Positions 30,943 through 44,242 of a stretch of DNA of 64,000 nt are shown one piece after another. The DNA lies in assembly GCA_014379405.1 (NCBI GenBank), contig JACMLU010000023.1, forward strand, positions 124,001 to 188,000, written 5' to 3'. The notes under the pieces were generated by a model. That model ran no database searches and had not been told where the DNA came from. It saw only the letters and a list, made by a program, of their open reading frames with translations. Every line of letters begins with the position of its first letter. The stretch's first letter is position 1. This DNA comes from Flavobacterium sp. GTDB taxonomy: Bacteria > Bacteroidota > Bacteroidia > Flavobacteriales > Flavobacteriaceae. The position numbers were made by a program, and so were the translations under genes.

Positions 30943-31761
30943 ATGATTATCCAAAAAACACGAGAGGAAATAGAATTAATGCGCGAAAGTGCTTTAATCG
31001 TATCCAAAACATTAGGAATGATTGCTTCCGAAATCAAAGAAGGAGTTACCACATTATACTTAGACAAAAGAGCAGAAGAATTTATTCGTGATCACGGAGC
31101 TGTTCCAAGTTTTCTAGGATTATATGGTTTCCCAAATTCGCTTTGTATGAGCCCAAATGCTCAAGTGGTACACGGAATTCCTAACAATAAACCATTAGAA
31201 AGTGGAGATGTGATTTCGGTAGATTGTGGTGCTTATAAAAACGGATTCCACGGAGACCACGCTTATTCATTCGAGATTGGCGAAGTGGCTCAAGAAACCA
31301 AAAAATTATTGCAGGTTACCAAAGAATCTTTGTATGTTGGAATCCGCGAATTCAGAGCCGGAAACCGCGTGGAAGATGTGGGTAATGCCATTCAAAAATA
31401 CACCGAATCTCACGGATATGGCGTAGTTCGTGAATTAGTTGGACACGGTGTTGGTCAAAAAATGCACGAAGATCCAGAAATGCCAAATTATGGTAAAAAA
31501 GGTCGTGGAAAACTATTCGTTGAAGGAATGGTAGTTGCCATCGAACCTATGATCAATATGGGAACCAAAAACATCAAACAACTCAAAGACGGTTGGACAA
31601 TTCTTACTGCCGACGGAAAACCAAGCGCCCATTTTGAACACGACGTGGCCATTATTGACGGAAAACCAGAGATTTTATCGACGTTTGCTTATATCTATCA
31701 AGCTTTGGGAATTGTGAGCAATGAAGAAGATGAGTTTAGAAAAATACCATTAGTTATTTAA
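30943..31761 (+). CDS. map: Methionine aminopeptidase, type I
   Basis: MAP removes the initiator methionine from nascent proteins using a dinuclear metal site. The five ligands of the pita-bread fold are all present: Asp94 (SVDCGAY), Asp105 (GDHAYSF), His168 (GHGVG), Glu201 (AIEPM) and Glu232 (FEHDVAI). At 272 residues it is type Ia with a slightly extended C-terminus. It is not next to the ribosomal-protein operon, as often in Bacteroidetes. Confidence 0.97.
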   Translation: MIIQKTREEIELMRESALIVSKTLGMIASEIKEGVTTLYLDKRAEEFIRDHGAVPSFLGLYGFPNSLCMSPNAQVVHGIPNNKPLESGDVISVDCGAYKNGFHGDHAYSFEIGEVAQETKKLLQVTKESLYVGIREFRAGNRVEDVGNAIQKYTESHGYGVVRELVGHGVGQKMHEDPEMPNYGKKGRGKLFVEGMVVAIEPMINMGTKNIKQLKDGWTILTADGKPSAHFEHDVAIIDGKPEILSTFAYIYQALGIVSNEEDEFRKIPLVI

Positions 31762-31767
31762 TATTTA

Positions 31768-31795
31768 AACACTAATTTCACGAATTATCACGAAT
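31768..31795 (+). repeat. Left inverted repeat of the GxxExxY element
   Basis: AAACACTAATTTCACGAATT and following bases match the reverse complement of 32234-32264 with few substitutions, including the shared core AATTTCACGAATTA. It begins a few nt after the map stop codon. Confidence 0.6.
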
Positions 31796-31832
31796 TCAAA
31801 ATCTATAAAAATTTCTCAAATAATAAATTAAT

Positions 31833-32202
31833 ATGGATGATATTTATTTAAAAGAAGAGTCCTATAAAATTATTGGTCTTTGTATGGAGGTTCATAGAAT
31901 TCTAGGTAAAGGTCACAGCGAAGTGGTTTACAAAGATGCTTTGGAATATGAATTTAAAATCAATTCCATTTGAAAGAGAGAAAATTTATGAAATTGAATA
32001 TAAAGACATTATTTTACCTCGAAAATACGTTGCCGATTTTGTTGTTTATAATGAGATAATATTTGAAGTAAAAGCAATTTCACAATTAACAAATAGTGAC
32101 ATTAGACAAACATTAAATTATTTAGCATCATCCAAAAATAAATTAGGCTTGTTATCCAATTTTGGAGAAGATAGCCTCAAATACAAACGAATTATTTTAT
32201 AA
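31833..32202 (+). pseudogene. GxxExxY protein (PDDEXK_3 family), frameshifted
   Basis: Reading from the ATG at 31833 gives 46 codons, MDDIYLKEESYKIIGLCMEV onward, including the name-giving GHSEVVY motif, then TGA at 31971. Reading continues in the +1 frame (track ORF 31936-32202) with IPFEREKIYEIEYKDIILP, then ADFVVYNEIIFEVKA, which supplies the Asp and ExK of a PD-(D/E)XK nuclease-like core. The two parts join into a normal family member of about 122 residues, so one frameshift has broken the gene. The short AATTC neighbourhood at the junction would suit slippage. Function of the family is unknown. Confidence 0.8.
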
Positions 32203-32233
32203 TCTCAAGTTAGTGAAATTCATTTTAAGCATA

Positions 32234-32264
32234 AATAATTTGTGCTAATTCGTGAAATTCGTGT
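32234..32264 (-). repeat. Right inverted repeat of the GxxExxY element
   Basis: Its reverse complement contains ACACGAATTTCACGAATTAG followed by CACAAATT, matching 31768-31795 and resembling the inverted repeat at 44171-44242. It lies directly before the methyltransferase gene and supplies the spurious GTG start used by the ORF track. Confidence 0.6.
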
Positions 32265-32278
32265 CTAAATTTTACCCT

Positions 32279-33043
32279 ATGAAATCTGTGTTTAAACTCA
32301 TCCTCAACACCATACCTCGTCCACTATTAATTCGTTTGAGTTATGTGGCTCGACCAATTATTGCTTTTTCTTTAAAAGGAACTAATTTCACCGATCCAAT
32401 AGACGGGAAAAGTTTCAAATCGATGTTGCCCTATGGATACGAAAAACAACGCAATAATGTGCTTTCGCCAAGTACACTTTCGTTGGAAAGACACCGTTTG
32501 TTATGGATATACTTGAACGAGCAAACCGATTTTTTTACAGCCAAAAAGAAAGTTTTGCATTTTGCTCCAGAACAAGCTTTTTACAAATTGTTCCGCAAGC
32601 AAAAAAACTTGGATTACACCACAACCGATTTATTTTCGCCTTTGGCTGACGTTAAAGCAGATATTTGTAATTTGCCTTTTGAGGACAATCAATACGATGT
32701 TATTCTTTGCAACCACGTTTTGGAACACATTCCAGACGACACAAAAGCAATGCAGGAATTGTATCGTGTTTTGAAAACGGGCGGAATGGCAATTCTCCAA
32801 ATTCCACAAGATTTGAAAAGAGAAACAACATTTACCGATGATACAATTACCGACCAAAAAGAACGTGCCAAAATCTTTGGACAATACGATCACGTTCGTA
32901 TTTATGGTCGTGATTATTTTGACAAATTGAGAAGCATTGGTTTTACGGTTATCGAAGAAGATTACACCAATAAAATAGCTCCGGAATTGGTAGAAAAATA
33001 TTGCTTGGCAAAAGGCGAAATTATTCCAGTTTGTTTTAAATAA
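32279..33043 (+). CDS. Class I SAM-dependent methyltransferase (Methyltransf_11)
   Basis: This is a 254-residue methyltransferase. A motif-I region VLHFAPEQAFYKLF replaces the usual ExGxGxG. LPFEDNQYDVILCNHVLEHIPDDTKAMQELYRVLKTGG is the typical post-I to motif III stretch of methyltransferase 11. The C-terminus contains GRDYFDKLRSIGF. The substrate is unknown. The ATG at 32279 is preferred over the track's GTG at 32252, because that GTG lies inside the intergenic repeat. Confidence 0.88.
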   Translation: MKSVFKLILNTIPRPLLIRLSYVARPIIAFSLKGTNFTDPIDGKSFKSMLPYGYEKQRNNVLSPSTLSLERHRLLWIYLNEQTDFFTAKKKVLHFAPEQAFYKLFRKQKNLDYTTTDLFSPLADVKADICNLPFEDNQYDVILCNHVLEHIPDDTKAMQELYRVLKTGGMAILQIPQDLKRETTFTDDTITDQKERAKIFGQYDHVRIYGRDYFDKLRSIGFTVIEEDYTNKIAPELVEKYCLAKGEIIPVCFK

Positions 33044-44170: not shown

Positions 44171-44242
44171 AACCACAAATTACACAAATTAGCACAAATT
44201 TTTAAGTATAATAATTGGTGGAAATTTGTGTAATTTGTGGTT
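44171..44242. repeat. 20-bp perfect inverted repeat upstream of the Crp/Fnr gene
   Basis: AACCACAAATTACACAAATT (44171-44190) is exactly complementary to 44223-44242. The left arm continues AGCACAAATT, matching the right repeat of the GxxExxY element. The element lies 12 nt before the Crp/Fnr ATG, so any transcript starting upstream would fold into a long hairpin. Confidence 0.8.

Follow-up and report, generated by a model that had tools for sequence, protein, structure and literature searches.

GxxExxY proteins and the inverted repeats that enclose their genes probably form a two-part system, in which a nuclease and its cognate repeats would bring about the dispersal or upkeep of short hairpins in a manner like that of RAYT proteins and REP sequences. 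The locus from which this reading is developed lies in a Flavobacterium draft genome (29 contigs, 3.86 Mb, 86% completeness), within a 64-kb stretch that was analysed as a whole and is called the window. The preliminary description had taken this locus for a miniature mobile unit, a view that the comparison with related genomes does not bear out; mobility is suggested by the gene-free hairpins with the same arms rather than by the gene locus. The features concerned are as follows.

30943..31761, + strand: map (methionine aminopeptidase), left neighbour; an open reading frame whose name is taken from the preliminary description
31759..31796, + strand: left inverted-repeat arm, CACTAATT-T-CACGAATT-AT-CACGAATT, class-E motif
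31833..32202, + strand: GxxExxY gene of class E1, disrupted; open at 31833-31973 in one frame and at 31936-32202 in another
32237..32274, - strand: right inverted-repeat arm, reverse complement CACGAATT-T-CACGAATT-AG-CACAAATT; the arms covary between species
32279..33043, + strand: methyltransferase-like gene, right neighbour; open reading frame with ATG at 32279
44171..44242, no strand given: gene-free hairpin of 72 nt with arms CACAAATT-A-CACAAATT-AG-CACAAATT, of the same type as the arms of the locus

The gene between map and the methyltransferase gene

The flanking inverted repeats are real: the two arms, 38 nt each, are 87% complementary at a spacing of 440 nt and constitute the longest and strongest inverted pair of the window when spacings of up to 600 nt are considered. 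The gene between them belongs to the family proposed for it, the fragment at 31936-32202 matching TIGR04256 at 2.9e-23 (82.5 bits, curated cut-off 35) and PF13366 at 9.3e-19 (68.4 bits, cut-off 22) in a profile search, but its reading frame is broken, beginning with the ATG at 31833, stopping at 31973 and resuming in another frame to 32202. At 370 nt, compared with 375 nt in the orthologs, the window copy has suffered a net deletion of 5 nt and shows no intact frame; because the genome is a draft at 86% completeness, this break could be a sequencing error.

Orthologs of class E1, at least 71% identical, occupy the map-methyltransferase junction in 18 other Flavobacterium genomes, and a recent insertion of the gene at the window site was thereby ruled out. 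The full frame is kept in 17 of these 18, the median dN/dS is 0.14, and the junction gene is, judging from these alignments, under purifying selection. This residence in 19 genomes, the selection acting on the gene, the near-absence of the family from plasmids and phages and the broken state of the window copy all speak against a miniature mobile unit at this place. The gene-less junctions that the preliminary description had envisaged in close relatives do exist (L067, L071, L075, L076 and L082 are without any element), and none of them bears a clean excision footprint or a target-site duplication. Three further junctions (L070, L077, L080) hold a GxxExxY gene of another class with other arms, and two (L072, L073) hold remnants in which an internally deleted or degraded gene lies between the arms.

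Across species the left and right arms change together, with CACGAATT on both sides in some and CACAGATT on both sides in others; over the 19 orthologs, arm similarity is 42.5 within species and 33.1 across species, a difference reached in 0 of 20000 permutations. Additional copies of the left arm stand in tandem upstream of the gene at two loci (L055, L068). Natural cases of a broken gene also occur, one copy having an in-frame stop (L079, genome G068) and the protein of another having its catalytic Asp replaced by Ala (L055, genome G056), and both genomes still hold many repeats.

Flanking arms and gene-free hairpins across genomes

Matches to PF13366 were found in 98 of 121 Flavobacterium genomes, at 1-9 per genome. 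The preliminary description had asked whether other GxxExxY loci carry such repeats, their absence counting against it, and the outcome is in its favour: with shifted windows of the same loci as control and the 99th percentile as threshold, flanking inverted arms accompany 66 of 77 distinct Flavobacterium genes and, in a sample from many phyla that takes in an archaeal draft genome (L143), 53 of 75, strong arms being absent from the remaining 11 and 22 genes, respectively. An arm typically consists of ACC followed by about three 7-8-mers with a period of about 10 nt; the heads read ACC, GCC or AACAC, and the periodic units that follow include CACAGAG, CGCAGAG, CGCAAAG, CACGAAG, CACATAG and CACGAATT. 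The generic unit pair has a fixed polarity, lying in the left flank on the + strand in 42 cases and on the - strand in 10, and in the right flank on the - strand in 44 and on the + strand in 15, compared with 14 of 568 control windows. Median arm similarity is 31 between genes of the same class in different genomes and 11.5 between different classes in one genome (p=1.6e-7), arm motif and protein class are correlated (Mantel r=0.64, 0 of 1000 permutations), and by these comparisons arm sequence tracks protein class rather than genome. The window genome itself holds a second, intact GxxExxY gene (L001, C14:208793-209119; 123.3 bits with TIGR04256, 118.6 with PF13366), flanked by a different repeat, AAACGCATAGAaaCATAG, of which the genome has nine exact copies (control 0), five of the nine in gene-free units.

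Copies of the repeats dispersed through the genomes were counted by pattern search; the hairpins that they form without a gene measure 54-190 bp. In the 3.86-Mb window genome, AATTCGTGAAATTCGTG with at most one mismatch occurs at 10 sites (reversed control 0) and the longer class-E pattern at 20 (control 0); most of these sites are arms of inverted units, about 50-200 bp long, that lie between genes and contain none. The hairpin at 44171-44242 has a single-stranded DNA fold of -23.8 kcal/mol (z -9.4); relatives hold a small unrelated gene at that spot, so that no clean empty site was found there and this comparison is uninformative. Class-E units are intergenic, with 5 of 59 sites in long open reading frames against a background of about 84%, and where oppositely oriented sites are paired they face inward in 15 cases and outward in 0. 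One genome (G009) has eight units of exactly 54 bp, whose mean likeness is 86% and whose flanks are no closer than shuffled sequence; four base pairs have undergone compensatory change on both sides and 96% of the cells pair. In three genomes (G052, G015, G006) one repeat family is nested inside another. The intergenic position, the unrelated flanks and the nesting of these sharp, near-identical units indicate the dispersal of discrete units.

Sites with presence or absence of a hairpin exist among relatives, their flanks being strongly diverged; at these polymorphic sites no target-site duplication was recognisable at 12-20% divergence, and neither transposition of a repeat nor a precise empty site was observed. 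Among the nested elements, the family GCCACAGATT..AATCTGTGGC lies within the family GCCACGAATT..AATTCGTGGC (L358-L362). At one convergent intergenic site, compared in five genomes (G056, G030, G117, G096, G015), two species have an ordinary terminator hairpin and another two have differing inverted-repeat elements in its place.

The abundance of the repeats follows the presence of the gene. With the proviso that these statistics ignore phylogeny, so that genomes are non-independent, and that genome size partly confounds raw counts, the median number of class-E sites per genome is 29 where E1 is present (n=19), 6 with E2 only (n=43), 3 with other GxxExxY genes (n=35) and 0 with none (n=24, of which 20 have exactly zero), and the contrast holds in size-matched genomes (p=1.4e-5). 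As many as about 190 dispersed sites are found in one genome. For the class-A motif the overall order is alike, the small 70-78% group with its few copies being the exception. In a set of 50 genomes drawn from many phyla, the median number of CACRGAG pairs is 37 where GxxExxY arms are of the CACRGAG type and 1 where the arms are of another type (p=4e-7), this between-genome contrast being used because tandem arrays also match the reversed pattern and partly contaminate that control. The tests least exposed to phylogeny are the contrast of classes within a genome and the contrast across phyla. Some genomes (e.g., G083, G108, G114) have many repeats in the absence of the matching class, and hardly any occur in some E2 genomes.

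A predicted nuclease and its possible action on the arms

The preliminary description had pointed to a PD-(D/E)XK-like core of Asp plus ExK, and conservation and modelling agree with it. Over 56 sequences D71, K83 and Q95 are invariant and E81 and Y99 exceed 90%, the conserved features being GxxExxY, D71, E81-x-K83 and Q95-xxx-Y99. Modelled with AlphaFold2, a Flavobacterium member (L083) gives an alpha-beta core at a pLDDT of 97, and the top match of the model in the PDB is SSO0001, a Cas4 nuclease (E 1.2e-3), followed at weak E values by MGME1, RecE and LHK-Exo; these fold matches are modest, none lying below 1e-3. Sequence search yielded nothing convincing among known structures, Cas4 profiles match the protein weakly, and Pfam gives PDDEXK_3 alone above cut-off, with no Transposase_17 (HUH/Y1) domain. 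The best explanation is that GxxExxY is a minimal nuclease of the Cas4/RecB type, with an activity predicted from the model and its residues. Phage cargo (0 of 50,697 phage records), plasmid cargo (8 of 72,556 plasmid records) and membership of a defence system (weak Cas4 profile matches and nothing more) were considered and rejected, and the family is, on the evidence of the records searched, chromosomal.

That such a protein acts on its own ends, as had been suggested for the window locus, is the best reading of these data, binding and cleavage themselves being what we infer from them. Since the period of the units is close to one helical turn, an oligomer of the nuclease would probably read the three 7-8-mers of an arm on successive turns. 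Its substrate would be the two inverted arms, either extruded as a hairpin or cruciform or exposed as single strands at a fork; nicking or trimming of the paired arms might then enable the copying, relocation, repair or upkeep of short gene-free hairpins, and in this way the nuclease may cause their dispersal or even transposition. The gene would meanwhile be inherited vertically between its own arms, in distinct classes with one motif each.

Alternative readings, known systems and significance

The main rival is a terminator or autoregulatory reading. The hairpins might be transcription terminators or mRNA-stability structures spread by recombination or by unknown enzymes, with GxxExxY merely located between two of them; they fold strongly, they are intergenic, and at one site they replace the classic terminator hairpin of relatives, so that a terminator role could explain their retention without any nuclease. 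This reading leaves unexplained why arm motifs go with protein classes instead of genomes, why polarity around the gene is fixed across phyla and why the repeats are nearly absent without GxxExxY, and the shifted-window controls point to far lower rates of arms away from such genes; we consider it unlikely. The protein might alternatively bind its arms for autoregulation, or serve as a repair or recombination nuclease at hairpins, the dispersed copies being decayed gene loci. The remnants with a deleted or degraded gene between arms (L072, L073) would suit this idea, and purifying selection and chromosomal residence suit a house-keeping role, but about 190 sites in one genome set against 1-9 gene copies per genome, together with near-identical 54-bp units in unrelated flanks, call for dispersal rather than gene decay, and we give this explanation little credence as well. 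That a classical DDE or HUH transposase has the hairpins as its MITEs, into which GxxExxY has inserted or with which it hitch-hikes, seems less probable still: discrete, sharp-ended units and the nesting of one family in another do resemble classical MITE behaviour, but the arms are predicted without any such transposase, in many genomes each GxxExxY class is accompanied by a motif peculiar to it, and the number of dispersed copies goes with the class.

The two-part reading thus has its nearest parallel in the RAYTs, of which genomes hold few resident genes, with inverted cognate repeats at their flanks and gene-free dispersed copies elsewhere (PMC2817692, PMC8049555). GxxExxY genes likewise are flanked by inverted cognate repeats that recur as gene-free intergenic hairpins, and share the class-specific repeats, the few gene copies and the vertical inheritance. 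RAYTs, however, are tyrosine (HUH) transposases of the IS200/IS605 type whereas GxxExxY is a predicted PD-(D/E)XK nuclease, and REP palindromes are headed by GTAG whereas the GxxExxY arms are 7-8-mers of 10-nt period with no head of that type; because the two proteins are unrelated, GxxExxY would work like a RAYT, yet is not one. The nucleases of the Cas4/RecB type (SSO0001, MGME1, RecE, LHK-Exo) share with it the predicted fold, the D...ExK and QxxxY residues and the weak Cas4 profile matches, but the conserved GxxExxY columns include no [Fe-S] cysteine cluster, the gene stands alone and no CRISPR context was seen at the window locus. MITEs of DDE insertion sequences are similar in their short gene-free units, inverted ends, internal-deletion derivatives and nesting, and differ in that here neither a DDE transposase nor a target-site duplication was found. 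TIGR04256 and PF13366, the models of the gene's own family, cover the protein alone and give no function or association with repeats. In the open-access literature, which our search covered, no description of a function for GxxExxY or of these repeats was found.

More tentatively, GxxExxY may be the enzyme half of widespread, undescribed repeat systems that are driven by a nuclease, operate without an HUH or DDE transposase and account for intergenic repeats of the CACAGAG, CGCAAAG and CACGAATT types in Bacteroidota, Planctomycetota, Acidobacteriota, Pseudomonadota and others. GxxExxY is a very common family, present in 98 of 121 Flavobacterium genomes and in many phyla, to which no function has been assigned; the arms provide it with a specific predicted substrate, and numerous intergenic repeats that had no explanation gain a candidate enzyme. 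Should the nuclease indeed move the repeats, REP-like repeats would be driven by PD-(D/E)XK proteins as well as by HUH enzymes, and the arrangement known from RAYT and REP would have been invented independently.
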